Source of the DNA: Henriciella sp.
Lineage (GTDB): Bacteria; Pseudomonadota; Alphaproteobacteria; Caulobacterales; Hyphomonadaceae
Length of the DNA stretch: 64,000 bases
Direction of reading: 5' to 3'
Assembly: GCF_029937755.1 (NCBI RefSeq)
Contig: NZ_JAPYPG010000004.1
Span: 186,001-250,000 of the forward strand
This document shows, piece after piece, positions 6,022 to 25,648 of this stretch (position 1 is its first letter; each line of letters opens with the position of its first letter). The notes beneath the pieces were generated by a model. That model ran no database searches and was not told the origin of the DNA. It was given only the letters and a program-made list of their open reading frames with translations. A program made the position numbers and the translations under genes.

Positions 6022-7680
6022 ATGTGGAAGAAAATCATCCTCGGCATTCTCATTCTTGCGGTCAGCGCCGCGATGCTGGCCTATCTCAATCGCAAGTCGA
6101 TCATCCTTTTCATTGCCTCCAACACCGGCAAGCAGGACGTGGCCGCGCATCGTGACATCGACTGGCGACAGGGCCCGGAGACGGCCGAGGTGCCTTCAGA
6201 GGATCGCCCGCCCAATGTCGTCTTCATCCTGGCCGATGACCTTGGCTTCAACGATATTTCGACCTTTGGGGGCGGGGTCGCGAATAGAGCCGTACAGACT
6301 CCCAACATCGACCGGCTGGCCCGTCAGGGTGTCATCTTCACCAATGCCTATTCCGGAACCGCCAGCTGCGCCCCCTCGCGCGCCATGCTGATGACCGGGC
6401 GATACCCGACACGGACCGGATTCGAGTTCACCCCGACCCCTGACGGCATGGGCCGCATTATCTCCATGTTCGCCGAAGACCAGCCGAACGGCATGCCCCC
6501 GATCGACTGGAACAGGGAGGCCTCCGAGGCGTCTCCGCCGTTCCAGGAGCAAGGCCTGCCCGGCGCCGAGGTAACCATGGCGGAAGTGCTGAAGGAGGCG
6601 GGCTATCATACTGTCCACATCGGCAAGTGGCATCTCGGTCGTGGCGAGGAATTCGGGCCCAATGCACAGGGCTTCGATGAGAGCCTGCTGATGGCGAGCG
6701 GGCTATACCTGCCAGAGGACGATCCGGACGTCGTCAATGCGAAGGTGGACTTCGATCCAGTCGACAAGTTCCTTTGGGCGCGCATGCAGTTCGCCGCGAG
6801 CTACAATGAAAGCGAATGGTTCAAACCGGGTGGCTACCTAACCGATTACTGGACTGAGGAGGCGCAGGACGTCATCCGCGCCAATCGCAATCAGCCTTTC
6901 TTCCTCTACCTCGCTCACTGGGGTGTGCACACGCCGCTGCAAGCCACGAAAGAGGACTTTGAGGCGGTCGGTGACATCGAGCCACACCGCCTGCGCGTCT
7001 ACGCAGCCATGGTGCGCGCGCTGGACCGGAGCGTCGGCGACATCCTCGACACGCTGGACGAGGAAGGGCTGGCAGAGAATACCATCGTGATCTTCTCGAG
7101 CGACAATGGCGGACCCGGCTATATCGGCCTTCCGGACATCAACGACCCTTATCGCGGATGGAAACTGACCCTGTTCGAAGGCGGCATCCGGGTACCGCTA
7201 TTCATGCGCTGGCCAGCACAACTCCCAGGCGGCCGGGCAATCTCTGCACCGGCTGCGCATATTGACCTCCTGCCGACACTTGCCGCGGCCTGCGGCGCCT
7301 CAATGCCACCAGGCGTCGAGATTGATGGGCGAAACCTTCTGCCACTGGCGACGGGCGAAACGGACAGGCTGGCTGAGGACACGATCTTCTGGCAGAGCGC
7401 CTACAATCAGGTCGTGCGGCAAGGAGACTGGAAGCTTCAGGTCAGCGATCGGCCCGACAAGGCCTGGCTCTACAATCTCGCCGAGGACCCGACCGAGCAG
7501 GTCAATCTGGCCGAGGACCGTCCCGACAAGCTTGCGGAAATGAAAGCGCTTCTGTCCGCTCATCAGGAAGGCGCACGCGAACCGCTCTATCCGTACACAC
7601 TCGAAGGGCCGGTGGCCGTGGACAAGACGCTGGCTGACCGGATCGAACCCGGCGACGAGATCATCTACTGGCCGAACTAG
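6022..7680 (+). CDS. Sulfatase, N-terminally membrane-anchored
   Basis: Second type I sulfatase, 552 residues. An N-terminal membrane helix (WKKIILGILILAVSAAMLAYL, residues 2-22) lacks an obvious cleavage site, so the enzyme is probably anchored at its N-terminus, unlike the C-terminally anchored sulfatase upstream. Visible core motifs are VVFILADDLGFNDIS (metal ligands), SCAPSRAMLMTGRYPTRTG with Cys116 as the formylglycine precursor, IGKWHLGRG, and SSDNGGPG. It is the last gene of the three-gene plus-strand group and ends 6 bases before the convergent TetR-family gene, with no hairpin between them. Closest in general architecture to arylsulfatase A/B-like bacterial enzymes; substrate unknown. 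Maturation would depend on a formylglycine-generating enzyme elsewhere in the genome. Confidence 0.85.
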   Translation: MWKKIILGILILAVSAAMLAYLNRKSIILFIASNTGKQDVAAHRDIDWRQGPETAEVPSEDRPPNVVFILADDLGFNDISTFGGGVANRAVQTPNIDRLARQGVIFTNAYSGTASCAPSRAMLMTGRYPTRTGFEFTPTPDGMGRIISMFAEDQPNGMPPIDWNREASEASPPFQEQGLPGAEVTMAEVLKEAGYHTVHIGKWHLGRGEEFGPNAQGFDESLLMASGLYLPEDDPDVVNAKVDFDPVDKFLWARMQFAASYNESEWFKPGGYLTDYWTEEAQDVIRANRNQPFFLYLAHWGVHTPLQATKEDFEAVGDIEPHRLRVYAAMVRALDRSVGDILDTLDEEGLAENTIVIFSSDNGGPGYIGLPDINDPYRGWKLTLFEGGIRVPLFMRWPAQLPGGRAISAPAAHIDLLPTLAAACGASMPPGVEIDGRNLLPLATGETDRLAEDTIFWQSAYNQVVRQGDWKLQVSDRPDKAWLYNLAEDPTEQVNLAEDRPDKLAEMKALLSAHQEGAREPLYPYTLEGPVAVDKTLADRIEPGDEIIYWPN

Positions 7681-12627: not shown

Positions 12628-12703
12628 GTCTTCCTCCGCTGGCGTCAGGGCCTGTCCTGTTTTGTGCAGGATAAGACCAGGCGTGAGCAAACCCTATCAT
12701 CAG

Positions 12704-12719
12704 GCGAAAAAATTTTCGC
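12704..12719. promoter_or_regulatory. AT-rich palindrome in the aidB/ior divergent region
   Basis: GCGAAAA-AA-TTTTCGC, a near-perfect short palindrome in the 256-base gap between the divergent AidB-like gene (start 12627) and the molybdenum hydroxylase operon (start 12884). This gap must contain promoters for both directions. I see no confident -35/-10 pair and no EcfG-type box there. The palindrome is the most conspicuous element and could be a regulator site or simply promoter-associated AT-rich DNA. Confidence 0.3.
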
Positions 12720-12883
12720 GCATGGCTGGTCGCGCTACCAAGCTCGCTCTAGACTTAATTTGGATCAGCCGGCGATGAGCGACCGCCGTCTGGGACGCGA
12801 AGGCGGGGCCTCATGGAGCCCGCGCCTGCCGGCCCTGCCCTTGCGGCATTGGCTGGCCGCCAGCACCGAGGAGGAAGAGGGCG

Positions 12884-13342
12884 ATGGCAGAACTCAAGGT
12901 CAATGGGAAGACGGTGACGGTAGAGGTCGAGGACGAGACCAAACCGCTGCTCTGGGTCATCCGCGAGGAACTGGGGCTGACCGGCACGAAATATGGCTGC
13001 GGCATCGCCCAGTGCGGCACCTGCACCGTCCATATCGACGGCCAGCCGGTGCGCTCCTGCACCTATCCGGTCGGCGCGCTGTCCGGCGCAGAAGAGATCA
13101 CGACGATCGAGGGCCTGTCGGAAGATGGTTCCCACCCCGTCCAGCAGGCCTGGGTGGAAATGGACATTCCGCAGTGCGGTTACTGCCAGCCCGGCATGAT
13201 CATGGCGGTGGCAGGCCTGCTCAACAACACACCGGACCCGACGGATGAGGATATCGACCAGCAGGTCACGAATATCTGCCGCTGCGGGACGCTGGCGCGG
13301 GTGCGCAAGGGCATCCATCTCGCCAAGACGAAGAAGGCGTAA
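12884..13342 (+). CDS. iorA: IorA-type [2Fe-2S] subunit of a xanthine oxidase-family molybdenum hydroxylase
   Basis: 152-residue iron-sulfur subunit, passing electrons from the molybdenum subunit to an acceptor. The N-terminal plant-ferredoxin-like domain has [10 protein letters not shown] plus a following Cys (RSC) for the first [2Fe-2S] centre. The C-terminal domain has CGYCQPGM and CRCG for the second. Length and order match the small subunit of isoquinoline 1-oxidoreductase and related two-subunit hydroxylases. A GAGGAGGAAGAGGG ribosome site precedes the ATG. It heads the long operon, with the large subunit starting 12 bases downstream. The name follows family usage; isoquinoline need not be the substrate. 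Confidence 0.9.
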
Positions 13343-13353
13343 GGGGACAGACA

Positions 13354-15555
13354 ATGGCTGACACAATCAATCTTTCCCGCCGCGGCTTCATTATCGGCAC
13401 CGGCGCGACCGGCCTGACCATCGGCATCCTGGCCGCCTGCTCTCCGGGCACCGGCGACAGCGAAGGCGATGCGGCAGCAACCGGCGAGCCCAATCCGGAA
13501 GTGAATGCCTGGGTGCATATCGGTGACGATGACGTCGTCACCATCCGCATTGCGCGGTCCGAAATGGGCCAGGGCACACTGACCGGCCTCGCCCAGCTTG
13601 TGGCCGAAGAACTCGAATGCGACTGGGACAAGGTCGTCACCGAATATCCGACACCGGGCGAAAACCTGAAGCGTGACCGCGTCTGGCGCGACTTCTCGAC
13701 CGGCGGCTCGCGCGGCATCCGCAACAGCCAGGACTATGTCCGCGAAGGCGGGGCAGCTGCGCGCATGATGCTGGTGCAGGCTGCAGCCAATCGCTGGGAC
13801 GTGCCCGTGGGCGAATGCTCGGTCGAGAAAGGCGTGATCACGCACGGACCGTCCGGCAACGAGCTGCGCTATGGCGAGGTGGCCGAGGACGCCGCGAGCG
13901 TCGAGCCGCCAGCCAACGTGCCGCTGAAGGATCCGTCGGAATGGAAAATCATCGGCCAGCCGGTGAAGCGCCTCGATACTGCCGACAAGGTGACCGGCAA
14001 GCAGCTCTATGGCGCCGACATCCAGCTCGATGGCATGGTCAACGCCGCCATCAAGGCCGCGCCAATGCGGGGCGGAACGGTGCGGTCCTTCGATGCGAGT
14101 TCCGCCGAAGGCATGCCGGGCGTGCAGAAGGCCATGCAGGTCGGCGATACCGCCGTCGCTGTCGTGGCCGACAAGTGGTGGAACGCCCAGAAGGCGCTCG
14201 ATGCGGTGCAGATCGAATGGGCGCCGGGCGAAGGCTCGGACTTCTCGAGCGCGGCTTTCGAGGCCGATCTCGATGAGGGCCTGACCGCCGAGGAAGCCTA
14301 TGTCGGCAACCAGGTCGGCGATGTCGATGCAGCGTTCGAGAATGCTGCGCAGGTCATAGAAGCGAGCTACAACGCCCCGCACCAGAACCATGCCTGCATG
14401 GAGCCGATGAATGCCACGGCCGTCTGGACCGAGGAGAAGTGCGAAGTCTGGTGCCCGACCCAGAACGGTGAAGCGGCCCTCGCCGCCACTGCCGAAGCGG
14501 CTGGCCTGCCGATCGAACAGTGCGACGTCTACAAGCTGCTGCTTGGCGGCGGTTTCGGCCGGCGCGGCATGAGCGACTATGTCACCCAGGCGGTGACCAT
14601 CGCCAAGGAGATGCCCGGCACGCCGGTCAAGCTGCTCTGGACGCGTGAAGAGGATATGGAGCAGGGCTTCTATCACCCGACGACGAAGGCCCGTTGCCAG
14701 GGCGCGCTCGATGCCGATGGCAAGCTGACCGGCATCAAGATCCGCCTGTCGGGCCAGTCCATCCTGGCCGGGCTCATGCCTCAGGCCCTGACCGACGGCA
14801 TGGATCCCTATGCCTTCCAGGGTCTGCTGCCCAGCGGCTTCGATGAACGGGCCGAAGACCAGACGCTGAAATACACCTATCCAGCGGCACTCTTCGACCA
14901 TGCCATGCGCAACCCGCCGGTACGGCCGGGCTTCTGGCGCGGGGTGAACGCCAACCAGAATGCGATCTACCTCGAATGCTTCATGGACGAACTCGCCCAT
15001 GCCGCCGGTCGCGATCCGCTGGAATTCCGGCTGGAATACATGACCGACAGCCCGAAACTCGCCGCCGTTCTCGAGGCGGCCGCGGAGAAATCCGGCTGGG
15101 GCAATGATGATGGCAAGGCCCGCGGGCTGTGCGCCTTCTACTCGTTCGGCAGCTACACCGCCGCCTGCGCGGAGGTGACGGTCAGCGATGAAGGCGAACT
15201 CAAGATCCACCGCATCGTGGCGGCAACCGACCCCGGCTATGGGGTCAATCCGCAGCAGATCGATGCGCAGGTCGCCGGCTCGTTCGTCTACGGCCTGTCA
15301 GCCGCCCTTTATGGCGAGATCACCTTCGAGAATGGCGAAACGGTGCAGAAGAATTTCGACTCCTATCCGTCGATGCGCCTGGCCGCGATGCCCGAAGTGG
15401 AAACGATCGTGATGCCGTCCGGCGGCTTCTGGGGCGGGGTCGGCGAGCCGACCATCGCCGTGGCAGCCCCCGCCGTGCTGAACGCCATCTATGCGGCCAC
15501 CGGCAAGCGCATCCGCAAACTGCCGATCAAGGACCAGCCGCTGAGGGACGCTTGA
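13354..15555 (+). CDS. iorB: IorB-type molybdopterin subunit, Tat-exported molybdenum hydroxylase
   Basis: 733-residue catalytic subunit of an IorAB-type hydroxylase of the xanthine oxidase family. The N-terminus carries a twin-arginine signal (LSRRGFIIG) followed by a lipobox-like LAAC, so the folded Mo enzyme should be exported, possibly lipid-anchored. Cofactor-binding stretches include ARSEMGQGTLTGLAQLVAEEL, GGGFGRRG and WRGVNANQNAI. The catalytic glutamate of this family is Glu698 in GGVGEP. Enzymes of this subgroup use molybdopterin cytosine dinucleotide, matching the MocA-like domain encoded later in the operon. Its periplasmic location puts it with the Sox proteins and cytochromes encoded downstream. 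Substrate unknown: N-heterocycles or aldehydes are typical of the family, but the neighbourhood suggests a sulfur-containing substrate (inference). Confidence 0.9.
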   Translation: MADTINLSRRGFIIGTGATGLTIGILAACSPGTGDSEGDAAATGEPNPEVNAWVHIGDDDVVTIRIARSEMGQGTLTGLAQLVAEELECDWDKVVTEYPTPGENLKRDRVWRDFSTGGSRGIRNSQDYVREGGAAARMMLVQAAANRWDVPVGECSVEKGVITHGPSGNELRYGEVAEDAASVEPPANVPLKDPSEWKIIGQPVKRLDTADKVTGKQLYGADIQLDGMVNAAIKAAPMRGGTVRSFDASSAEGMPGVQKAMQVGDTAVAVVADKWWNAQKALDAVQIEWAPGEGSDFSSAAFEADLDEGLTAEEAYVGNQVGDVDAAFENAAQVIEASYNAPHQNHACMEPMNATAVWTEEKCEVWCPTQNGEAALAATAEAAGLPIEQCDVYKLLLGGGFGRRGMSDYVTQAVTIAKEMPGTPVKLLWTREEDMEQGFYHPTTKARCQGALDADGKLTGIKIRLSGQSILAGLMPQALTDGMDPYAFQGLLPSGFDERAEDQTLKYTYPAALFDHAMRNPPVRPGFWRGVNANQNAIYLECFMDELAHAAGRDPLEFRLEYMTDSPKLAAVLEAAAEKSGWGNDDGKARGLCAFYSFGSYTAACAEVTVSDEGELKIHRIVAATDPGYGVNPQQIDAQVAGSFVYGLSAALYGEITFENGETVQKNFDSYPSMRLAAMPEVETIVMPSGGFWGGVGEPTIAVAAPAVLNAIYAATGKRIRKLPIKDQPLRDA

Positions 15556-15917
15556 GCGCCCTGAAGACCAGACAACTGATGGCCGCAGCCCTGCTCGGGG
15601 CTGCGGCCAGCCTCTCCGCCTGCAATCCGGCCAACGGCACCGACGACGCCGGAATGGACGGCCTGAAACAGGCCGAACAGGTCTCCGTGCCAGACAGGAC
15701 CAGCATGCTCGCCATGAGCTGTTCAGGCTGCCATAGCGAGGCCGGGCAGGCGATCGTCAGCCTTGAGGGCTATTCCCGGGAAGAGCTTATGACCGCCCTT
15801 ATGCGCTATCATGATGAGGCCGACGGTACGACGGTTATGCACCGGCTGATGCGGGGCTATAGCGAGGCCGATATGGCCAGCATCAGCGTCTATCTCGCCG
15901 GGGACAAGCCTCTATGA
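15552..15917 (+). CDS. Monohaem c-type cytochrome lipoprotein (FccA/SoxE-like)
   Basis: 121 residues starting at a TTG that overlaps the iorB stop (TTGA). Signal peptide with lipobox (AAASLSAC), then one haem-binding motif CSGCH at residues 57-61 and a methionine-containing C-terminal region (MHRLMRGYSEADMASISVYLAG) typical of small class I cytochromes. It lies between the Mo hydroxylase and a flavocytochrome c sulfide dehydrogenase flavoprotein, overlapping both. It may be the cytochrome partner of either: FccA for the flavoprotein, or the electron acceptor of IorAB, since such hydroxylases often have cytochrome subunits. Sequence alone does not settle which. Confidence 0.8.
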   Translation: MSALKTRQLMAAALLGAAASLSACNPANGTDDAGMDGLKQAEQVSVPDRTSMLAMSCSGCHSEAGQAIVSLEGYSREELMTALMRYHDEADGTTVMHRLMRGYSEADMASISVYLAGDKPL

Positions 15918-17191
15918 GCCGTTTCCCCCTCAGTCGCCGCAGCGTGCTGACCGGACTGGCCGGCACGGCTGCACTCGCCGGGCTTTCCCCCGCCGCCATG
16001 AGCCAGACGAAGGCAAAGCTGGTCGTAATCGGCGGCGGCTTTGGCGGGGCAACGGCGGCGAAGTATCTCAAACAGCTGATGCCAGGTGCATCGGTCACCC
16101 TGATCGAGCCGAAGAGCACCTACTATGCCTGCCCGTTCAGCAATCTGGTAATCGGCGGCGGGCGTGAACTGTCCGCACAGGCGTTCGGCTATGACGGCCT
16201 TAAGGCGCTTGGTATCGAAATCGTCCAGCAGGCTGCAGACGCCGTCGATGCAGACGCGCGCACCGTGACGCTGGCTGACGGCGCGAGCCTGTCCTGGGAC
16301 CGGCTTGTCATGTCGCCCGGCATCGATTTTCGCTGGGGCGCGCTGGAAGGCTATGACGAGGGCGCGGTCGACGCCATGCCGCACGCCTGGAAGGCTGGGC
16401 AACAGACCACGCTGCTGCGCCGGCAGCTGGAAGAGATGGAGGATGGCGGGCTAGTCGTGATGTCTGCGCCTGCCGCCCCGTTCCGCTGTCCGCCGGGCCC
16501 TTATGAGCGCGCGAGCCTGATCGCAAACTATCTCAAGACACAGAAGCCGAAATCGAAGCTTCTGGTGCTGGACGCGAAGGACAGCTTCTCCAAGCAGTCC
16601 TTGTTCGAGGAAGCCTGGGCCGCCCGCTATCCCGACCATCTCGAATGGCGCGGCGCGAGCGACTTTGGGCGCGTCGTCGCCGTCAATCCGGAGACGATGA
16701 CGCTTTCGACCGAGTTCGACGAGATCGAAGCCACCGTCGCCAATGTCATCCCGCCGCAACAGGCCGGGCGCATTGCCCACGCCGCCGGTGTCGCTGACCA
16801 GACCGGCTGGTGCCCGATCAACGGCCTCACCTTTGAATCGACACTCGTGCCCGGCATACACGTCCTCGGCGATGCGACGATTGCCGCTCCGATGCCGAAG
16901 TCGGCCTTCTCGGCTAACCTTCAGGCCAAGGTTTGCGCGGCCCAGATCACACGGCTGCTGGCCGGGCAGGACCCGGAAGCGACGGTGCTGGCCAATACCT
17001 GCTATTCCTATGTGGCCGATGATGCGGCGGTCTCGATAACCGGCGTCTATACCAATGATGACGGCAAGCTGATGAGCGTTGACGGTGCCGGCGGGGTCTC
17101 ACCCCTCGCAGCGGCACCATCGGTCCGCGAGGCCGAAGCAGCGCAGGCCCTGGCCTGGTTCAGGACCATTACATCAGAGGCGTTCGGATGA
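15914..17191 (+). CDS. fccB: Flavocytochrome c sulfide dehydrogenase, flavoprotein subunit (FccB/SoxF-like)
   Basis: 425-residue FAD protein oxidising sulfide or a related sulfane group in the periplasm. A Tat signal (LSRRSVLTG) precedes the FAD-binding motif VVIGGGFGGATAAKYL at residues 38-53. All functional cysteines of the family appear conserved: YYACPFSN (the cysteine binding flavin covalently in Allochromatium), RCPPGPYER, and NTCYSYV (the redox pair). GDATIAAPMPKSAFSAN contacts the flavin near the C-terminus. The gene overlaps both neighbours by 4 bases (cytochrome upstream, soxX downstream). SoxF in Paracoccus belongs to the same family and can reactivate the Sox system, consistent with this position. 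Confidence 0.9.
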   Translation: MSRFPLSRRSVLTGLAGTAALAGLSPAAMSQTKAKLVVIGGGFGGATAAKYLKQLMPGASVTLIEPKSTYYACPFSNLVIGGGRELSAQAFGYDGLKALGIEIVQQAADAVDADARTVTLADGASLSWDRLVMSPGIDFRWGALEGYDEGAVDAMPHAWKAGQQTTLLRRQLEEMEDGGLVVMSAPAAPFRCPPGPYERASLIANYLKTQKPKSKLLVLDAKDSFSKQSLFEEAWAARYPDHLEWRGASDFGRVVAVNPETMTLSTEFDEIEATVANVIPPQQAGRIAHAAGVADQTGWCPINGLTFESTLVPGIHVLGDATIAAPMPKSAFSANLQAKVCAAQITRLLAGQDPEATVLANTCYSYVADDAAVSITGVYTNDDGKLMSVDGAGGVSPLAAAPSVREAEAAQALAWFRTITSEAFG

Positions 17192-17664
17192 GGGCTTGCC
17201 TCGCCGCGCTTGCCGGCGGCCTTCTCCTGACCGGTGGCTGCACTGAGGCGGAGACCGAGCAGCGCCTCGCCGAACCGGTGACGGTAGAGGGTGATGCTAT
17301 CCCGGCCCCACTTGGCGGCGAGACAGGCGATGCAGCACGCGGACGCGTCGTCTTCGTCGATCGTGAGCAGGGTCATTGCGTCCTTTGCCATCAGGTGGAC
17401 GGGCTGGACGCAGAATTTCAGGGCAATGTCGGCCCGGCGCTGACGGGGCTCGGCGACCGGCTGGACCCGGCGCAGATCCGCCTGCGGGTGGCCGACGCGC
17501 AAAGGATTTGGCCGGATACGGTCATGCCCTCATATTACAGGGTGTACGGCCTCAATCAGGTCGGCGAAGAGTATCGCGGCGAACCCGCTCTCACCGCGCG
17601 CCAGATCGAGGATCTGGTCGCCTGGCTCGCAGCGCTGAAGACGGAAGGCAATGAAGATGGCTGA
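17188..17664 (+). CDS. soxX: SoxX, sulfur-oxidation c-type cytochrome subunit
   Basis: 158-residue monohaem partner of SoxA. The SoxAX complex attaches a sulfur substrate oxidatively to the carrier SoxYZ. The signal peptide has a lipobox (LTGGC). The haem site is CVLCH at residues 64-68, and Met113 in MPSYYR is the likely axial ligand, the hallmark of SoxX. FQGNVGPALTGLGDRL and RQIEDLVAWLAALK complete the family pattern. It overlaps fccB by 4 bases and soxY by 14 bases, so the sox genes are tightly coupled to the Mo hydroxylase and flavoprotein genes. Confidence 0.9.
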   Translation: MRACLAALAGGLLLTGGCTEAETEQRLAEPVTVEGDAIPAPLGGETGDAARGRVVFVDREQGHCVLCHQVDGLDAEFQGNVGPALTGLGDRLDPAQIRLRVADAQRIWPDTVMPSYYRVYGLNQVGEEYRGEPALTARQIEDLVAWLAALKTEGNEDG

Positions 17665-18121
17665 GAATTCTTTCACGCTGACACGGCGCCTGATGCTGAC
17701 CGGTCTCGGGGCCGGTGTGCTGTCGAGCGCCCTGCCCTTTTCGGCCCTTGGCGAACCGGAAGATGCCGACAAGGCGATCCGGGACCTGTTTGGTGACGGA
17801 GAGATCAGGGAAGGCAAGGTCACGGTGAAGCTGCCGCCCATTGCCGAGAACGGCAATTCGGTCGCGATCACGGTGTCTGTCGACAGCCCGATGAGCGAAG
17901 CCGACCATGTCAGACGCATTGGCCTGTTTTCGCCGCGCAACCCGATCCCGGAACTGGCCGTCTTCGAACTCGGCCCGCGCGCCGGAAAGGCGGAAGTCTC
18001 GACCCGTATCCGCATGGCGGGCACGCAGCGCATCCGCGCGGTTGCGGAGATGAGTGACGGGTCACTCTGGATGGGCAGTGCCAGCACCGTCGTGACGCTC
18101 GCAGCCTGTGTGATCGGATAG
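17651..18121 (+). CDS. soxY: SoxY, sulfur carrier subunit with a non-canonical tail
   Basis: 156-residue carrier that, with SoxZ, holds the sulfur substrate on a C-terminal cysteine. Tat signal LTRRLMLTG at the N-terminus; family blocks VTVKLPPIAENGNSVAI, VDSPMSEADHVRRI, TRIRMAGTQ and AVAEMSDGSLWMG. SoxY normally ends in GGCGG on a flexible arm; here the end is LAACVIG, with Cys153 kept but its glycines replaced. This may change access of the arm to partner enzymes. The start could also be ATG 17657 (two codons later). It overlaps soxX by 14 bases and is followed by soxZ after 9 bases. Identity is secure; the tail is the notable oddity. Confidence 0.9.
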   Translation: MKMAENSFTLTRRLMLTGLGAGVLSSALPFSALGEPEDADKAIRDLFGDGEIREGKVTVKLPPIAENGNSVAITVSVDSPMSEADHVRRIGLFSPRNPIPELAVFELGPRAGKAEVSTRIRMAGTQRIRAVAEMSDGSLWMGSASTVVTLAACVIG

Positions 18122-18130
18122 GAGGCACCC

Positions 18131-18448
18131 ATGACCATCCGGATTTCTGCTCCCGACACCGCCAGCAAAGGTGACATCATCGAACTCAAGGCGATGATCC
18201 AGCACCCGATGGAAACCGGCTATCGCAGCGGCTCGCGCGGCGAGAACATTCCGCGCGACATCATCACCCGGTTTGAATGCCGCTATAATGGCGAGACGGT
18301 GTTTGCCGCCGACTTCCATCCGGGCATCGCGGCCAATCCTTTCCTGACGTTCTATACCAAGGCCACGGAGTCCGGCACACTCGCATTCGAGTGGACTGAC
18401 CAGGATGGCGAAAGCTGGTCCGAGAGCCACGAGATTACTGTGGAATGA
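18131..18448 (+). CDS. soxZ: SoxZ, sulfur carrier complex subunit
   Basis: 105 residues, the usual SoxZ size, forming the heterodimer with SoxY. Characteristic sequence: STASKGDIIELKAMIQHPMETGYR-type N-terminus (here SAPDTASKGDIIELKAMI), NIPRDIITRFECRYNGETVF, HPGIAANPFLTFYTKATESG and a final immunoglobulin-like strand. No signal peptide: SoxZ is normally exported together with SoxY through the SoxY Tat signal. A good ribosome site (TAGGAGG) precedes the ATG, and the stop overlaps the soxA start by 4 bases. Confidence 0.95.
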   Translation: MTIRISAPDTASKGDIIELKAMIQHPMETGYRSGSRGENIPRDIITRFECRYNGETVFAADFHPGIAANPFLTFYTKATESGTLAFEWTDQDGESWSESHEITVE

Positions 18449-19239
18449 GAAGCCTGGGCGCCGCCGCGCTCCTGCTGCTGGCAGCCTGCTCTGGCAGTCG
18501 CGGAGAGGGCCCTGCCCCCGAGCGCACAACCCTGCCCGATGAGGTAAAGCAGACCGGCACCGCCTTCCTGCAGCCCGAGACCCGTGCCCTGCAGGAAGAT
18601 GATTTCGCCAATCCCGGCATGCTCTGGGTCGACCGGGGCCGCTCACTCTTCCGCGAGACGATCGGCCAGTCCAAATCCTGCGCGGCCTGTCACGGCGAGG
18701 ATGGCAGCGAGCTGGACGCCGCCGCCTCGCACTATCCGCAGGTGGACGAGGAGTCCGGCGAGCTGGTCAATCTCGAAGGCCGCATCAATCTCTGCCGCAC
18801 GCGCCATCAGGGGCTTGAGCCGCTCGACTATGAAAGCGACCCGCTGCTCGCCCTGACGACCTATGTCGCGCACCTCTCGGAAGGTGCGCCCATGTCGGTC
18901 GATGTCAGCGGGGCGGCAGCGCCGTACTACGAGCAAGGTCAGGATTATTTCTTCACGAAACGCGGTCAGTTCAATCTCGCCTGCAGCCAGTGCCACAATG
19001 AACATTGGGGCGAGAAACTGCGCGGCGACACGATCAGCCAGGGCCATGGCAACAGCTTCCCGGCCTACCGGCTCGAATGGCAGACGCTCGGCTCGCTTCA
19101 CCGGCGGCTGAGCGACTGCGATGCGGGCGTGCGGGCCGAGCCTTATCCGCTTGGGTCTGATATCTATACCGCTGTCGAACTCTATCTCGCCAAACGGGCC
19201 GAGGGGCTGCCTGTCGAAACCCCAGGGATCAGACGATGA
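18445..19239 (+). CDS. soxA: SoxA, dihaem cytochrome of the SoxAX complex
   Basis: 264-residue catalytic partner of SoxX, exported via a lipoprotein-type signal (LLLAAC). Two haem motifs: CAACH at residues 79-83 and CSQCH at 180-184. The active-site cysteine that carries the persulfide and ligates haem is Cys225 in LSDCDAGVRAEPY, the signature of SoxA. Both haems are kept, whereas some SoxA proteins have lost the N-terminal one. The gene overlaps soxZ and the ModE-like gene by 4 bases each. It is the last Sox protein gene: no soxB, soxC or soxD follows. Confidence 0.92.
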   Translation: MRSLGAAALLLLAACSGSRGEGPAPERTTLPDEVKQTGTAFLQPETRALQEDDFANPGMLWVDRGRSLFRETIGQSKSCAACHGEDGSELDAAASHYPQVDEESGELVNLEGRINLCRTRHQGLEPLDYESDPLLALTTYVAHLSEGAPMSVDVSGAAAPYYEQGQDYFFTKRGQFNLACSQCHNEHWGEKLRGDTISQGHGNSFPAYRLEWQTLGSLHRRLSDCDAGVRAEPYPLGSDIYTAVELYLAKRAEGLPVETPGIRR

Positions 19240-19598
19240 GCGACCACGAAGAAGCCAGCCTCAGCATTCGCATCAACCTCGCCAATGGCGGGCGGTTCGG
19301 GCCGGGCAAGGCCGCGCTTCTCCGCGCCATCGCAGAGGCCGGATCGATCAGGGCCGCCGCGCAGGCGCTGTCCATGTCCTATCCGCGCGCGTTGAAGCTG
19401 ATTGAGGAAATGAATGCCGACTTCGCCGATCCGCTGGTCCAATCGAGTGTGGGCGGGTCCGAGCGTGGCGGCTCGGCGCTTTCGGACACCGGCAAGGCCG
19501 TGCTTGCGGCTTATGATGATGTCTGCGCCGAGGCAGGCAACTCGACCGGCGTCATTCTTGAACGCCTCTCATCGCTGCAATCCCTGGATCAGGGCTAG
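19236..19598 (+). CDS. ModE-like winged helix-turn-helix protein (DNA-binding domain only)
   Basis: 120 residues corresponding to the N-terminal LysR-like winged helix domain of the molybdate regulator ModE (LANGGRFGPGKAALLRAIAEAGSIRAAAQALSMSY, then PRALKLIEEMNADF and GGSERGGSALSDTGKAVLAAY). The C-terminal Mop/TOBE molybdate-binding domains of full ModE are missing, so direct molybdate sensing is doubtful. It overlaps the soxA stop and precedes the cofactor genes by 36 bases, placing it as the likely autoregulator linking the enzyme half to the molybdenum-cofactor half of this operon. Confidence 0.8.
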   Translation: MSDHEEASLSIRINLANGGRFGPGKAALLRAIAEAGSIRAAAQALSMSYPRALKLIEEMNADFADPLVQSSVGGSERGGSALSDTGKAVLAAYDDVCAEAGNSTGVILERLSSLQSLDQG

Positions 19599-19633
19599 CC
19601 TCGCTCTAAATCACCGTTTACAACGGACATCTG

Positions 19634-21124
19634 ATGAGCCCGATGCAGCGCTATCTCGAACACCCGGAAGACGTTCTCGGCCAGTGGCTCGACTGGCGGC
19701 GCGATGGTGCTGTGGCGCTTATTATGGTCACCACCACAGAAGGCGGCGCCGTGCGGGAAGCCGGCGCGCTCATGGCTGTCACCGATGAAAGCCAGGCGGC
19801 GGGCTACATTTCCGGCGGATGTATCGACGCCGATGTCATCCTGCAGGCTGAGGCCGCGTTGAAGAGCGGCGAGACGATGTCGCTGCGCTATGGCGCCGGC
19901 TCACCCTTTGTCGATCTCCCCCTGCCCTGCGGCGGCGCAATCGAGGTCACCATCCTTCCAGATGCGGATGAAGCGACGCTGCGCAAATGCCATGATGCGC
20001 TGGCAGCACGGCGCCCGGCGCGGCTGGCGCTTGGCGGGTTTGACGCGCGCTACACGCCGAAGCTCCGCCTGCGGATTGCCGGGCGCGGGGCGGACCCGCT
20101 GGCGCTTGCCCGGCTAGCCAGGGCGAGCGGCGTGGATGCAGCACTGCAACTGCGCGACGGCGAAGATGTGCAGGCTGCCCTGTTGGAAGGCTTCGACACG
20201 GTAAATGCGCTCGACACGCCAACCGACCTGCCACCCCTGGACGATGATCCGTGGACGGCCTTCATCCTGATGTTCCATGACGGCGACTGGGAAGCCCCGC
20301 TGCTGAGGCAGGCGCTTGAGGGCCCGGCCTTCTATGTCGGCGCTGTCGGGTCCCGCCGCACCCATGCCCGGCGCTGCGATGCGCTGCGGGAGCAGGGCGT
20401 GGCCGAGACAGACATTGCCCGCATCCACGGGCCGGTCGGGCTGATCCCGTCCATGCGCGATGCCTCCATGCTGGCGGTTTCGACACTGGGCGAGATCGTT
20501 GCCACCTACCATCAGACCGCCAAAACCCCCTTTGCCCACACGGCCCTCATGATGCTCGCGGCTGGCGCATCGGCCCGCTTCGAGGAAGGCGACAAACTGC
20601 TCGCGCCGTATGAAGGTGAGCCCGTCATCTCGCACGCCGCTAGCCTTCTGGAAGCGGAAGACGCTGCCTCGCGCCTCGCGGTCATCCGTCCGGAGGCGAT
20701 GAAGCGGGCGAGCCTGCTCGGCCAGAGCTGGCACATCGTCGAAAATGCGGAGGCGGCCAGCGGTCAGGCCAGTTCGCTGCGCGCCGGGGTCGAAGCTGCG
20801 CGCCAGGACGGCCGCGTTCAGCAAGTCCTTGTCCTGCTTGCCGACATGCCGGCCGTGCCGGAGCATCACTTGCGCAAGCTCCAGCGCGCCATCAACACGG
20901 GCGCCACAGCCGCCATGACCGAGTGCGGCGGCAAGCTGATGCCACCCGCCATCTTCACCCGTAAGACCTTCGATGCGCTGATGCAGGTCGAGGGCGACCG
21001 GGGCGCGAAAGGCGTCTTCACAACACTCACCAACACCGCAACCATTGTGCTCGATCCCGCGTTGGGGATCGACATCGACACGATGGATGATCTCGCAAAA
21101 CACCAGGAGGCGCTTCATGCCTGA
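19634..21124 (+). CDS. XdhC-MocA fusion: Mo-hydroxylase maturation factor and molybdopterin cytidylyltransferase
   Basis: 496 residues with two domains. Residues 1 to about 300 are an XdhC/CoxF-type chaperone ([69 protein letters not shown]), which binds and sulfurates or inserts the Mo cofactor into xanthine-oxidase-family enzymes. Residues about 305-496 are a nucleotidyltransferase ([43 protein letters not shown]) of the MocA type, which makes molybdopterin cytosine dinucleotide. These are usually separate proteins, although such fusions occur. It matches the needs of the IorB enzyme at the operon's start. The stop overlaps the moaA start by 8 bases. Confidence 0.85.
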
Positions 21125-22139
21125 CGGCCAGAGCCCCCCGCCGCTGACGGATGTCTTCGGGCGCACCGTCTCGTACCTCCGCTTGTCGGTGACGGATCGC
21201 TGCGACCTGCGCTGCACCTACTGTATGGCCGAACACATGACCTTCCTTCCGAAGAAGGACCTGCTCAGCCTGGAAGAACTCGAGACCGTGGCTGCGGCCT
21301 TTATCCGCCGCGGCGTGCGCAAAATCCGGATCACGGGCGGCGAGCCCCTCGTGCGCAAGGATATCGGAGACCTGTTCGACCGGCTCGGTCGCCACATGGG
21401 CGAAGGTCTCGACGAACTGACATTGACGACAAATGCGACCCTGCTGGCCCAGCATGCCGAGCGGCTTTATGCGGCGGGTGTGCGGCGGGTGAATGTGTCG
21501 CTCGATACGCTCGACCCCGTCATGTTCAAGACGATCACGCGGCTTGGCGACCTGCAGAAGTCGCTCGACGGGATAGAGGCGGCCAGACAGGCAGGCCTGA
21601 AGGTGAAGATCAACACGGTCGCACTGAAGCATCAGAATGCTGCCGAGATCCCCGCCATGGTCGAATGGGCGCACGCGCAAGGCTTCGACATGACGCTGAT
21701 CGAGGTGATGCCGCTCGGCCTGACGGGCGAGGATCGCGTCGACCAGTATGTGCCGCTGTTTGAAATTCGCGACCAGCTTGCCGATCGCTGGAACCTCACC
21801 GATGAGGAAGGCCGCGACGCGCAGGCCGGCCCGTCGCGTTATGTGCGTATTGCCGAGACCGGCGGGCGGCTCGGTTTCATCACGCCGCTGACCAATAATT
21901 TCTGTGCCGGCTGCAACCGGGTTCGCGTTACCTGTACGGGGCGTATCTATATGTGCCTCGGACAGGACGATCATGTCGACCTGCGCGCCGCGCTGCGGGA
22001 CGCCGAGCATCCGGCCCTTGCGCTCGATGAGGCGCTCGATACCGCGCTTATGCGCAAGCCAGAGAAGCATGAATTCGCCATCCGCGAGCGTGGCGAGGCC
22101 CCGGCCCTGCCCCGCCACATGTCGATGACGGGGGGCTGA
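21117..22139 (+). CDS. moaA: MoaA, GTP 3',8-cyclase
   Basis: Radical SAM enzyme of 340 residues that starts molybdopterin synthesis from GTP, together with MoaC. I chose ATG 21117, which has an AGGAGG site 6 bases upstream and gives the usual MoaA start ([22 protein letters not shown]). The SAM cluster motif is CDLRCTYC; the C-terminal GTP-side cluster uses [11 protein letters not shown] plus a later Cys (MCLG); and the protein ends in the conserved GG (MSMTGG). The start overlaps the XdhC-MocA fusion gene, so cofactor synthesis is translationally coupled to the maturation factor. Confidence 0.95.
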
Positions 22140-22143
22140 GGAA

Positions 22144-22392
22144 ATGGCGCAGATCCTGTTCTTTGGCCGGCTGATGGATGTCACCGGCAAAGCGGAAGAA
22201 ACCATCACCCTGCCCGACACGGTACGCGATACCTCGGCCCTGCGCCGCTGGCTGGATCAGGATCGTGGCCTTCAGGGCGCGCTGCTGGAAAAGACTGTAC
22301 GGCTCGCGATCAATAACGAAATCGTCGCCGATCCCCATCCGGTCAATGACAATGACGAGATCGCCTTCATGCCCCCGGTCGGAGGCGGCTGA
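22144..22392 (+). CDS. moaD: MoaD, molybdopterin synthase small (sulfur carrier) subunit
   Basis: 82-residue ubiquitin-like protein, the thiocarboxylate sulfur donor of molybdopterin synthase. The fold pattern ILFFGRLMDVTGKAEETI...DTSALRRWLDQ and the sequence NDNDEIAFMPPVGGG match MoaD. The extreme C-terminal Gly-Gly, activated as thiocarboxylate, is present. Located 4 bases after moaA and 3 bases before moaE, its enzymatic partner. Confidence 0.93.
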   Translation: MAQILFFGRLMDVTGKAEETITLPDTVRDTSALRRWLDQDRGLQGALLEKTVRLAINNEIVADPHPVNDNDEIAFMPPVGGG

Positions 22393-22395
22393 GCG

Positions 22396-22842
22396 ATGCT
22401 GCGGGTCAGCAGTGAGCCCTTCAATGCGGGCGAGGAGCTCTCCGCCTTCGAGCGCGATGCGGCAGGCGCTGGCGCGGTCGTCAGTTTTACCGGACTGGTG
22501 CGTGACCATGCCTCCAGCGGTGACGTGAAATCACTCTTCCTGCAGGCCTATTCGCCGATGACCGAACGCGGGATCGAGGAAGCTATTACGGCAGCCACGG
22601 AGCGCTGGCCGCTCACCGCGCTGAAGGTCATTCACCGCGTCGGTGAGATGGCGCCGGGCGAGGCGATCGTCTTCGTCGCAACCGCCTCGGCTCATCGCCG
22701 CGCGGCTTTCGAGGCGGCCGATTTCCTGATGGACTATCTCAAGACCGAGGCTGTCTTCTGGAAAAAGGAAGCAACCGAGACAGGTGAACACTGGATCGAC
22801 CCCCGCAGTGAGGATTATCAAGACCGCGCCCGCTGGGCGTAG
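22396..22842 (+). CDS. moaE: MoaE, molybdopterin synthase catalytic subunit
   Basis: 148 residues; inserts two sulfurs into cyclic pyranopterin monophosphate using MoaD thiocarboxylate. Conserved blocks are GAVVSFTGLVRD near residues 25-36, IHRVGEMAPGEAIVFVATASAHRRAAFEAADFLMDYLKTEAVFWKKE, and a C-terminal conserved lysine/tryptophan region. Normal length. It follows moaD directly and lies 15 bases before moaB. Confidence 0.94.
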   Translation: MLRVSSEPFNAGEELSAFERDAAGAGAVVSFTGLVRDHASSGDVKSLFLQAYSPMTERGIEEAITAATERWPLTALKVIHRVGEMAPGEAIVFVATASAHRRAAFEAADFLMDYLKTEAVFWKKEATETGEHWIDPRSEDYQDRARWA

Positions 22843-22857
22843 GTGTGAGGGAGAAAC

Positions 22858-23403
22858 ATGCAAGGCATCAATGAAAGCCTGGACTTCCAGCAGGTGCGTA
22901 TCGCCATCCTGGTGATGAGCGACACGCGGACACTGGACACAGACACCTCTGGCAAAGTGCTGGCCGACAGGATCGAGGACGCCGGCCACTTGGTCGCTGA
23001 CCGCAAGATCGTTCCGGACGACAAGGCGGCCATCCGCACGCAGGTTTCCACATGGATTGCGGATCCGGACGTGGACGTCGTCATCACGTCAGGCGGCACC
23101 GGCCTGACCGGCCGGGACGTGACGCCGGAAGCCATCACCCCGCTCTTCGACAAGGTCATCGACGGTTTCTCGGTGATCTTTCACCAGGTGAGCTATCAGA
23201 GCGTCGGCCTGTCCACGCTGCAGTCACGCGCCATTGCCGGCGTGGCGAGCGGGACGTTCGTCTTCTGCCTGCCGGGCTCGAACGGCGCGGTGAAGGATGG
23301 CTGGGACAAGGTCATCTCGCTGCAGCTCGACAGCCGCCACAAGCCCTGCAATCTGGTCGAGCTGATGCCCCGCCTGATGGAGCATATGGAGCACGATCAT
23401 TGA
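22858..23403 (+). CDS. moaB: MoaB/MogA-type molybdopterin adenylyltransferase
   Basis: 181 residues; adenylates molybdopterin so that MoeA can insert molybdate. Motifs [31 protein letters not shown] and [19 protein letters not shown], and a late [18 protein letters not shown] block are typical of MoaB/MogA. GAGGGAGAAAC precedes the ATG. The stop TGA overlaps a TTG start for moaC. No separate mogA is present in the operon, so this protein presumably supplies that step. Confidence 0.92.
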
Positions 23404-23885
23404 GCGGTGATCTGACACATATCGGGCCGGACGGCCGTGCGCGCATGGTCGATGTGTCCGACAAGGCCGTCACCGCGCGCGAAGCCGTCGCGCAAGGCGT
23501 GGTGCATATGAGCGCCGGGACGCTCAAGCTCGCCCTGTCGCGCGACACAAAGAAGGGCGATCCGCTCGCCGTGGCCGAACTCGCCGGCATAATGGCCGCG
23601 AAGAAGACATCCGACCTCATCCCGCTCTGCCATCCGCTGCCGCTGACCGGTGTGAAGGTGGAGATTTCCCAGCATACCAAAGAAACCGCGCTGGTCGTGA
23701 CCGCGCGGGCCAAGACATCCGGTCAAACGGGTGTCGAGATGGAAGCGCTGACGGCGGTTTCAGCCGCATGCCTGACGCTCTACGACATGTTGAAAGCCGT
23801 CGACAAGGCCATGGTCATCGGCGGGATCGAGCTTGTCGAGAAGACCGGCGGCAAGTCGGGCGATTACAGGAAGGCAGACATTTGA
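23400..23885 (+). CDS. moaC: MoaC, cyclic pyranopterin monophosphate synthase
   Basis: 161 residues completing cyclic pyranopterin formation after MoaA. I place the start at the TTG of 23400, overlapping the moaB stop, because the protein then begins with the canonical [25 protein letters not shown] and a GGAG site lies 7-10 bases upstream; no ATG fits. Family motifs: [37 protein letters not shown], and [18 protein letters not shown]. It overlaps moeA in the same TTGA manner. Confidence 0.92.
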
Positions 23886-25084
23886 GCGGACTGATTTCCG
23901 TCGACGAGGCCCACCGGCTGCTCGCCGGACAGAGGCCAGATACGGCCTCTGAAACGGTGGGCATCACCGATGCTGAAGGCCGGGTGCTCGCCACCGAGGT
24001 GATCGCAAATGTTTCACGGCCGCCCGCGGCTGTCTCCGCCATGGATGGCTATGCCGTTCGGCTTGCGGATGTTGGCGAGGCTGGGGCCCGGCTGAGCGTA
24101 ATCGGTGAAGCCCCGGCAGGCGCGCCTTTTGCGGGGACGGTCGGGGCAAGCAAAGCGGTCCGTATCTTCACCGGAGCACCGCTGCCTGACGGCGCCGATC
24201 ATATCGTCATCCAGGAAGAGACCGAGCGCGAGGGCGACACCGTCACCTGCCAGGCGTCATATGAAACGCCGGAATATGTGCGGCCCGCGGGCATGGATTT
24301 TCTTGAGGGCGATACGGTTCTGGAGGCGGGCACACGGCTTGGCGCTGGCGAGCTCGCCCTCATCGCTGCCGCCAATCATGGCCAGGTTTCGGTGAGGCGG
24401 AAGCTTCGCGTCGGCATTCTCGCCAATGGCAATGAGCTGAAAGCGCCGGGCGCCACGCTGGCACCGGGCGAGATCGTCAATTCCAATCCGGTGGGCCTTG
24501 CCGCGCTGATCCGGAACTGGGGCGGCGAGCCGGTCGATCTCGGCATTGCTGCCGACACGATGGAAGCCATCCGCAGCGCGATCGCATCAGCCCCCGGCAT
24601 CGACATCTTCCTGCCCGTTGGCGGGGCGTCCGTTGGCGATCATGACCTGATGCGTCCGGCCTTCGCAGCTGAAGGGTTCGAACCGCTGTTCGAGCGGGTG
24701 GCTGTGCGTCCCGGCAAACCGACCTGGTTCTCAATGCATGGCAAGCAGCGCGTCCTCGGCCTGCCGGGCAATCCGGCCTCAGCCATGGTTTGCGCGCATC
24801 TGTTCCTGCAACCGCTGCTGACGGGTGAGGCCCTACCCGTCATCAAGGCGAGACTGGCCTCAGCGGTGCCGCCAAATGGCCCGCGGGAACACTATATGCG
24901 TGCGAGCCTCGCGATCTCGGATGGCGGCGTCGTGACAGCGCGGGCGGCCTCCAATCAGGACAGCTCGCTTATCTCGCCCTTCATCGCGTCCGGCGGTCTC
25001 ATAAGAAGACTGCCCGGCGCTCCTGAAATGGAGGCCGGGCAGATCGTCGATGTTCTGCTGATGCGCCCGCTGGCGGGCGGCTGA
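23882..25084 (+). CDS. moeA: MoeA, molybdopterin molybdenumtransferase
   Basis: 400 residues, the standard length once the TTG at 23882 (overlapping the moaC stop) is taken as start. Inserts molybdenum into adenylated molybdopterin. Visible motifs: [28 protein letters not shown], the substrate-binding [11 protein letters not shown] loop, VRPGKPTWF and [12 protein letters not shown]. It is the last gene of the long operon and its stop abuts the convergent cytochrome gene at 25085 with no intervening terminator. Confidence 0.94.
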
Positions 25085-25648
25085 TCAGGACGGCTCGTAG
25101 CCGGATTCAGCCATGATGTAGGCAATGACCGCATGACGGTCGTCCGGGCGTTTCACACCGGCAAAGCTCATCTTGTTGCCCGGCAGGAAGCTGCGCGGGT
25201 TCTCGAGCCATTTTTCCAGCTGCTCCGGCGTCCAGGTAAACTCGGCCTCCTGCAGGGCGCTGGAATAGTCAAAACCCTCTTTGGTGCCAACCTCGCGGCC
25301 GAACAGGCCATGGAGGTTCGGGCCGAGCACAGCCGGGCCACCCTCATCGAGCGTGTGGCAGGACTGGCACTGAAGGAAGACACGCCGGCCGCGATCATAG
25401 TCGGCAGAGGCGTAGGGCTCCGGAAAGCCTGCAAACTGGGACGGGACCGCTTCCTCGGCAGCCACGGTTTCGGCTTCCGGCTCTGCCGGTGTTCCGGCAT
25501 CGGTATCTGTATCGGCAGGCGCCGTTTCACTTTCCACCGGCGGGGTCGGCGCTTCCTCGGTGGGCTCGTCGCCACCGCTTCCACCACACGCGGTGACAAG
25601 CGCAAGGCTGAGGGCGAGGGCAGCGGGTGTTGCAAATCTCAAAGTCAT
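25085..25648 (-). CDS. Cytochrome c lipoprotein with Ala/Pro/Glu-rich linker
   Basis: 187 residues. Lipoprotein signal (LALVTAC), then a low-complexity acidic, Pro/Ala/Thr-rich linker (about residues 25-75), then a class I cytochrome c domain with CQSCH, the LGPNLHGLFGREVGTKEGF block typical of cytochrome c2/c-552 types, and Met ligand in NKMSFAGVKRPDDRHAVIAYI. The layout is a membrane-tethered electron shuttle. It converges on moeA and may serve the upstream oxidases as acceptor, though it is on the opposite strand and is a common respiratory protein. Confidence 0.88.
   Translation of the reverse strand: MTLRFATPAALALSLALVTACGGSGGDEPTEEAPTPPVESETAPADTDTDAGTPAEPEAETVAAEEAVPSQFAGFPEPYASADYDRGRRVFLQCQSCHTLDEGGPAVLGPNLHGLFGREVGTKEGFDYSSALQEAEFTWTPEQLEKWLENPRSFLPGNKMSFAGVKRPDDRHAVIAYIMAESGYEPS

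Follow-up and report, generated by a model that had tools for sequence, protein, structure and literature searches.

An iorAB-soxXYZA gene cluster in Henriciella points to a SoxB-free Sox carrier working with an exported molybdenum dehydrogenase

The window considered here is a stretch of 64,000 nucleotides from Henriciella sp. (NCBI RefSeq assembly GCF_029937755.1, contig NZ_JAPYPG010000004.1, positions 186,001 to 250,000), in which the genes of a predicted exported molybdenum (Mo) enzyme, IorAB, adjoin those of the sulfur-carrier proteins SoxXYZA. The cluster comprises 16 genes between 12884 and 25084, all on the plus strand, whose families were called by NCBIfam models at their curated cut-offs, Pfam models and matches to solved structures (Table 1). 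A preliminary description, made from the letters of this DNA, had placed the same 16 genes in the same order on one strand with mostly overlapping or tight junctions, and all are present as stated, most junctions overlapping and the largest gap measuring 35 bases. The break into independent transcripts that it had counted as evidence against its proposal finds no sign in the gaps or in terminator scans of the sequence, terminator-like sites standing at chance level (7 found versus 7.2 expected, both strands). The intergenic region ahead of iorA, bounded on its far side by a divergent gene for an AidB-like acyl-CoA dehydrogenase, contains no sigma-70 consensus. The start of MoaA is most likely the ATG at 21117 and not the TTG at 21045, and that of MoeA, read from the translation, is most likely the TTG at 23882, overlapping the MoaC stop.

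Table 1. Features of the iorAB-sox operon and its immediate flanks in the window.
Feature	Position	Strand	Basis and remarks
Intergenic region ahead of iorA	12691..12883	+	Gap between open reading frames; probable promoter region
iorA, two-[2Fe-2S] subunit of Mo hydroxylase	12884..13342	+	PF00111, PF01799; no signal motif seen
iorB, Mo-binding subunit, twin-arginine signal, Glu698	13354..15555	+	PF02738, PF20256; 8gy3_C match
Small monoheme cytochrome c, FccA-like position, lipobox-like start	15552..15917	+	CSGCH; no Pfam match
fccB/soxF-like flavoprotein of sulfide dehydrogenase, twin-arginine signal	15914..17191	+	PF21706, PF09242
soxX, monoheme, lipobox-like start	17188..17664	+	TIGR04485 75.2 (cut-off 61)
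soxY, "AACIE arm" carrier, C-terminal LAACVIG, twin-arginine signal	17651..18121	+	TIGR04487 175.6 (cut-off 172)
soxZ	18131..18448	+	TIGR04490 100.6 (cut-off 76)
soxA, diheme, heme-ligating active-site Cys225, lipobox-like start	18445..19239	+	TIGR04484 227.7 (cut-off 110)
ModE-like helix-turn-helix regulator, N-terminal domain only	19236..19598	+	PF00126 over cut-off
XdhC-MocA fusion, Mo-cofactor sulfuration/insertion and cytidylyltransferase domains	19634..21124	+	PF02625, PF13478, PF12804
moaA	21117..22139	+	PF04055, PF06463; start corrected
moaD	22144..22392	+	PF02597
moaE	22396..22842	+	PF02391
moaB	22858..23403	+	PF00994
moaC	23400..23885	+	PF01967; single moaC match in window genome
moeA	23882..25084	+	PF03453, PF00994, PF03454; start corrected
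Class I c-type cytochrome	25085..25648	-	PF00034; 9msz E 1e-28

IorAB displays the features of the xanthine oxidase (XO) family, including (i) the Mo-cofactor domains, (ii) two 2Fe-2S domains, and (iii) the catalytic Glu, and these agree, together with the twin-arginine (Tat) motif of IorB, with the exported XO-family enzyme of the preliminary description. The name isoquinoline 1-oxidoreductase also comes from there; no NCBIfam equivalog reached its cut-off with IorA or IorB, and an identity as carbon monoxide dehydrogenase was rejected (TIGR02416, 61 bits versus a cut-off of 991). A gene for a flavin adenine dinucleotide subunit is not among the Pfam-annotated genes of the cluster. Among solved structures, IorB comes closest to the large subunit of an aldehyde dehydrogenase (8gy3_C, E 2e-81, residues 2-730, full length), which we take to be the membrane-bound enzyme of acetic acid bacteria, so that aldehyde oxidation by IorAB appears at least as likely as heterocycle hydroxylation. 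The homology runs over the full length and includes the Tat-type start, whereas IorB forms a separate subfamily, and we know of no Sox partners for aldehyde dehydrogenases of the 8gy3_C type.

The proteins encoded downstream of IorB are related to those of sulfur oxidation. FccB matches the structures of sulfide dehydrogenases (5n1t, E 2e-132; 1fcd, E 3e-121), and the closest solved relatives of SoxA and SoxY are the SoxXA structures (1h31, E 4e-49) and SoxY, respectively. Key residues are kept throughout the aligned relatives, comprising SoxY Cys153 (101/101), the heme ligands and active-site Cys225 of SoxA (102/102), the heme and Met of SoxX (102/102), the redox Cys pair of FccB (87/87 and 86/87), Glu698 of IorB (102/103, the remaining one being a gap), and the CxxCH motif and Met of the small cytochrome, present in 37 of 37 alignable relatives. 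Tat motifs occur in IorB, FccB and SoxY, and lipobox-like starts in the two small cytochromes, SoxX and SoxA; IorA and SoxZ, in which no signal motif is seen, would leave the cell together with their partners. SoxY stays below the cut-off of the true SoxY model (TIGR04488, 104.9 bits versus 125), and both carrier subunits fall well short of the quinoprotein-associated SoxYZ model TIGR04557 (SoxY 72.3 and SoxZ 51.7 bits, cut-off 140), of which the window genome holds no fused copy.

Comparison across genomes defines the conserved unit as iorA-iorB-(cytochrome c-fccB)-soxX-soxY-soxZ-soxA. Within the order, a SoxY of family TIGR04487 occurs in 17 of 150 genomes, the window genome included, and all 16 of the other genomes bearing it carry the eight-gene core iorA-iorB-cytochrome c-fccB-soxX-soxY-soxZ-soxA; the pairing is therefore not confined to this strain, an outcome that the preliminary description had regarded as fatal to its proposal. 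Public genomes scanned with a SoxY alignment yielded 343 relatives, Henriciella mobilis being the nearest named genome, and the best 80 were examined as loci, with up to 10 kb on each side. Sequence reaches 5.6 kb or more upstream of soxY in 68 of the loci; iorAB stands beside soxXYZA in 67 of these, with fccB in 63 and without it in four, and L105 is the sole full locus with soxXYZA and no iorAB; iorB is still visible in 7 of the 12 loci that are cut off. Because these loci had been chosen by SoxY, 289 alphaproteobacterial genomes were searched with IorB in a survey of the class, and the IorB subfamily (E <= 1e-250) was found in 23 of them, 17 having SoxY within 5 kb; a check of the other SoxY places brought in five more, in which IorB is cut or more divergent, for a total of 22 linked genomes. 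In a phylum-wide draw of 398 genomes the subfamily (E <= 1e-200) occurs in 24, comprising (i) 20 with adjoining soxXYZA, four of which belong to one non-alphaproteobacterial genus with genomes of 1.7-2.1 Mb, (ii) one, G214, with soxX-soxA only, and (iii) three without Sox genes in the examined stretch.

The module is present in soil and marine bacteria, including Henriciella, Hyphomonas, Methylobacterium, Mesorhizobium, Chelatococcus and other genera, and the search with IorB found no viral copies. Its gene order varies and its content stays the same, the cytochrome c and fccB following soxA in L124, fccB alone following soxA in L133, and the whole cluster being rearranged in L221, where two iorAB pairs are present. 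Rearrangement with an unchanged gene set speaks for selection acting on the set. FccB is missing from 9 of the 22 linked places, within the examined stretch, while SoxXYZA stays.

Several individual loci deserve mention in their own right. A second iorAB pair stands directly beside the operon in L040, L041, L094 and L221, and was not seen beside it in the Henriciella loci L042, L046, L049 and L052. In genome G239, iorAB and cytochrome c-fccB-soxXYZA lie inside different contigs (L141 and L142), and the two can thus coexist unlinked. A contig of a metagenome-assembled genome (MAG) titled Bordetella parapertussis (L114) bears the iorAB-soxXYZA cluster; its place in trees, beside an alphaproteobacterial MAG or the small-genome genus, makes this title doubtful. 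Adjoining the iorAB-sox cluster of L140, a thioredoxin/ResA-like open reading frame (ORF; L140:5381-6439) is broken by an in-frame TGA within WASW-U-GC and is likely a selenoprotein; the NF041054 "WAxxUGC" model matches its first half below the cut-off, and L139, of the same family, has a matching pair of ORFs (L139:13321-14379).

The SoxB and SoxC models have no match in the window genome (E <= 0.001, SoxD lying outside the search), so that the preliminary description, which had noted both as absent and had weighed the chance of soxB and soxCD nearby, is borne out genome-wide for these two proteins. The lack of a SoxC match argues against the normal sulfur-to-sulfate route, Dsr, sHdr, TsdA and SQR not being among the models searched. 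SoxB exceeds its cut-off in none of the 150 genomes of the order, with weaker matches in four, and in 26 of the 289 genomes of the class survey. Of the linked genomes in that survey, 18 of 22 are without SoxB, and in the other four SoxB adjoins a second SoxY with a GGC arm; the frequency of SoxB in linked genomes does not differ significantly from expectation (Fisher p 0.12). SoxC is over its cut-off in one of 23 genomes tested, itself a SoxB carrier.

The C-terminal arm of SoxY separates the two settings. Among 54 of the 55 SoxY places of the class survey (G185:C40 being left out), the arm is of the xAC type in 26 and of the GGC type in 28, and IorAB lies within 6 kb of 22/26 of the former and 0/28 of the latter (Fisher p 2e-11, a value that ignores relatedness). 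The four xAC places without a near IorAB are that of G239, with IorAB on another contig, and those of G219, G241 and G275, whose SoxY contigs are short or come to an end. SoxB, in turn, is near 21 of the 28 GGC-arm places, and the GGCGG-arm locus L121 has no IorAB nearby. The structure of the SoxY tree follows the same lines, with 21 of 21 SoxB-linked rows and one other GGCGG row forming a supported group, to which the IorAB-linked L114 and L124 adjoin with weaker support. Classical SoxY has a swinging arm that must enter SoxB, where a bulkier one, extended by a tail beyond the Cys, would be unlikely to fit. Separately, L216, L220 and L222 show GGC-arm SoxYZ beside a cytochrome and FccB, with neither SoxB nor IorAB in the stretch, a pairing that resembles the flavocytochrome c with SoxYZ reported for SAR324 in PMC4782131.

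The Mo-cofactor genes, which the preliminary description had joined to the system, are a local neighbour and not part of the conserved system, since among the 80 loci they lie near the core, upstream or downstream, only in Hyphomonadaceae and in one unplaced alphaproteobacterial MAG. A single moaC per genome was found in 17 of 17 genomes checked, that of the window lying in the operon and those of G065 and nine genomes from outside the family lying away from the core. The ModE-like gene remains below its NCBIfam cut-off (TIGR00637, 61.2 versus 98.5 bits).

Beyond the operon, the class I cytochrome at 25085-25648 was itself matched in 10 of the 80 loci, a member of its cluster (from L082) occurs in 23 of them, and relatives stand beside iorAB in several other genera; an OmpR-type two-component system lies near 18-19 of the 80. 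Both also recur beside Sox-free iorAB. The recurrence of the cytochrome beside Sox-linked and Sox-free iorAB makes it probably an electron acceptor of the system, and that of the two-component system makes a substrate-induced reaction likely. When up to three ORFs on each side of 22 loci were compared by eye, few of them annotated, the neighbours differed between lineages except for the two-component system and the cytochrome, so that the reaction looks self-contained. About 5 kb before the start of the operon, the window also holds a sulfatase-family gene (6022-7680) preceded by a GST-like gene.

Taken as a whole, the gene associations indicate with considerable confidence that IorAB and the Sox proteins form one functional module independent of SoxB. 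What the module does is addressed more tentatively. The preliminary description had proposed that IorAB hydroxylates an organosulfur or other small molecule whose sulfur is handled on a SoxYZ-type carrier. On the reading favoured here, though itself somewhat doubtful, IorAB and SoxYZ may handle the same sulfur-containing organic substrate and, in a fuller and slightly less probable version, small organic thiols would be tied to a specialised SoxYZ and their carbon part oxidised, while tethered, by the XO-family Mo enzyme without SoxB. The proposed course comprises (i) the oxidative tying of a thiol-bearing small molecule to SoxY Cys153, which SoxXA would perform; (ii) oxidation of the carbon part of the molecule by IorAB, most likely at an aldehyde group, or at a C-H next to a heteroatom, with oxygen drawn from water; (iii) the uptake by FccB of sulfide or carrier-bound sulfane sulfur that might be freed on the way; (iv) the transfer of electrons from SoxXA, FccB and IorAB to c-type cytochromes of the periplasm, which probably include the product of 25085-25648; and (v) a release of the product that would proceed without SoxB, sulfate therefore not being the expected end product.

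A number of observations weigh against a substrate shared by IorAB and the carrier. XO-family enzymes act on carbon, and to our knowledge none takes a carrier-bound substrate. Arm type and partner could both follow ancestry, the IorAB-linked SoxY proteins lying largely on one side of the tree. In Rhizobium and Sinorhizobium, relatives of IorB occur with the cytochrome, and mostly with the two-component system, and have no adjacent Sox genes; this clade alters only one position conserved in Sox-linked IorB, and IorAB may thus work without SoxYZ. The complete genome G214 keeps iorAB-soxX-soxA with no SoxY anywhere, and a second, Sox-free iorAB occurs in two genomes of the non-alphaproteobacterial genus (L194, L196). 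In the second of two IorB trees (69 rows), the rows without Sox are scattered over about six places (L208; L194; L207; L196; L022 with L206; the Rhizobium/Sinorhizobium clade) and 10 changes of label are required, which slightly weakens the reading of a shared substrate; L227, L143 and L141 count as Sox-free merely through a contig end or split genes.

With regard to the history of the linkage, the first-branching subfamily row of the first IorB tree (104 rows) is Sox-linked and six Sox-free rows lie in two places inside, and in the second tree the Sox-linked L219, L221 and L127 branch among the deepest. Each tree was rooted at its midpoint, includes three outgroup rows and contains some long branches; L215, with IorB in two pieces, and cut sequences were left out. 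The IorAB-Sox linkage is read as ancient and repeatedly lost, with repeated gain as the alternative. IorB positions that track the absence of Sox were rejected as a signal, numbering 1 in the Rhizobium/Sinorhizobium clade and 3, 6, 14, 15, 32 and 48 in six other Sox-free rows, against control counts of 0-11 in ten Sox-linked groups and a median of 1 with a maximum of 14 in single Sox-linked rows. Among them, IorB Tyr646 (window 15289-15291) is retained by 97% or more of the Sox-linked rows and changed in L140, L194, L196, L206 and L208, which have no SoxYZ, and not in seven other Sox-free rows, a post hoc observation that is given no weight. At L194:6400-9793, the Sox-free second iorAB is followed by a gene for a ferric-reductase-like membrane protein (PF01794), an arrangement that suggests another electron route for IorAB relatives.

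The relatives of the individual proteins lend themselves to a further account, in which two oxidations would run in parallel under one control, IorAB acting on an aldehyde and SoxXA/SoxYZ/FccB on a sulfide or thiol arising concurrently, with no shared intermediate. A serious rival, although rather doubtful in our estimate, it agrees with the aldehyde-dehydrogenase-like IorB, with the sulfide-dehydrogenase-like FccB and its two redox cysteines, and with the two-component system found near the loci, as expected for substrate induction, and the Sox-free IorAB clusters of the same subfamily have made it more probable than it would otherwise be. On the other hand, SoxXYZA is kept where FccB is absent, so that plain sulfide removal is not the common part, and the arm type of SoxY closely follows IorAB. 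Methanethiol oxidase as a joint source of aldehyde and sulfide is not general, and this link was rejected as such (SBP56 in 2/22 linked versus 16/267 other genomes, none in the window genome). The carrier might instead, as a second serious rival, serve the upkeep or protection of IorAB. XO-family enzymes need a terminal sulfido ligand, which XdhC inserts in the cytoplasm, and an exported enzyme cannot return there for repair; SoxYZ would bring sulfane sulfur to restore the Mo=S ligand, or shield the cofactor from harmful sulfur, and neither SoxB nor SoxCD would be needed. A published parallel exists in the fused SoxYZ-like carriers (TIGR04557) of pyrroloquinoline quinone (PQQ) alcohol dehydrogenases, discussed as maturation or protection factors in PMC12997753, in which a carrier is likewise tied to a periplasmic dehydrogenase instead of SoxB; there, in contrast, it is fused and has a SoxH-like zinc hydrolase partner. 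A role of this kind is nevertheless unlikely, given that closer Sox-free relatives of IorAB exist, that the more distant relatives L170-L172 have no Sox genes within 5 kb (the likewise distant L221, whose IorB is 36-37% identical, does have them), and that SoxXA without SoxYZ in G214 would make little sense for a repair carrier. A link of the present system to the PQQ-SoxYZ relay was also considered and rejected, TIGR04557 being found in 0/17 linked genomes searched and 4/59 others.

Two further explanations are still less probable. It seems quite improbable that the Sox genes are a truncated ordinary system, yielding sulfur or tetrathionate from thiosulfate or sulfide, and IorAB a passenger: SoxX, SoxZ and SoxA are above the cut-offs of the thiosulfate-oxidation families and L105 does without iorAB, but SoxY belongs to a family of its own and falls short of the true SoxY model, the adjacency of iorAB holds across families and in reordered clusters, and the deepest branches of the IorB trees include Sox-linked rows. 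Very improbable, finally, is the notion that SoxXA is only the cytochrome acceptor of IorAB and that the carrier chemistry is vestigial. The aldehyde dehydrogenase related to IorB does use a cytochrome subunit, and the gene set of G214 would suit such a role; yet the invariant Cys of SoxY and active-site Cys of SoxA would be needless for a pure electron wire.

Compared to the Sox thiosulfate system, the module preserves the heme ligands and active-site Cys of SoxXA and a SoxYZ carrier with a C-terminal Cys, but has neither SoxB nor SoxC, and displays an xAC arm in place of GGCGG and an XO-family Mo partner. Compared to flavocytochrome c sulfide dehydrogenase/SoxF, it shares the FccB domains and both redox cysteines, but the cytochrome partner is a small monoheme protein and FccB is often absent from the module. 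The model that the window SoxY exceeds, TIGR04487, is named "SoxY-related AACIE arm protein", a name also borne by a Methylobacterium plasmid gene; it refers to the arm alone and says nothing of a pairing with IorAB. No description of iorAB with soxXYZA is among the literature matches listed, most subscription journals lying outside the search, so that this is no proof of absence, and the term "AACIE arm" was not found in the literature searched. Shewanella IorB is listed as a Tat substrate in PMC3623810, where, in the accessible part, SoxYZ appears only in a reference title. The parts are thus known and the SoxY family has already been named by NCBI, whereas the iorAB-soxXYZA system itself is, among the matches listed, apparently undescribed.

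The association of a SoxB-free Sox carrier with an exported Mo dehydrogenase points to a periplasmic reaction not described before. The presence of Sox genes is usually taken as a sign of thiosulfate oxidation, and the module could be counted as such in metagenomes although it has no SoxB. Its existence suggests that periplasmic dehydrogenases of at least two kinds, the published PQQ type and the Mo type described here, have recruited carriers of the SoxYZ type. The C-terminal arm of SoxY offers a simple sequence mark that separates SoxB-linked from IorAB-linked uses and, as it marks both, makes the question of the cargo of the carrier directly testable. If organic thiols are indeed oxidised while bound to SoxYZ, the XO family would gain a carrier-bound substrate, and the Sox proteins a use in organosulfur metabolism.

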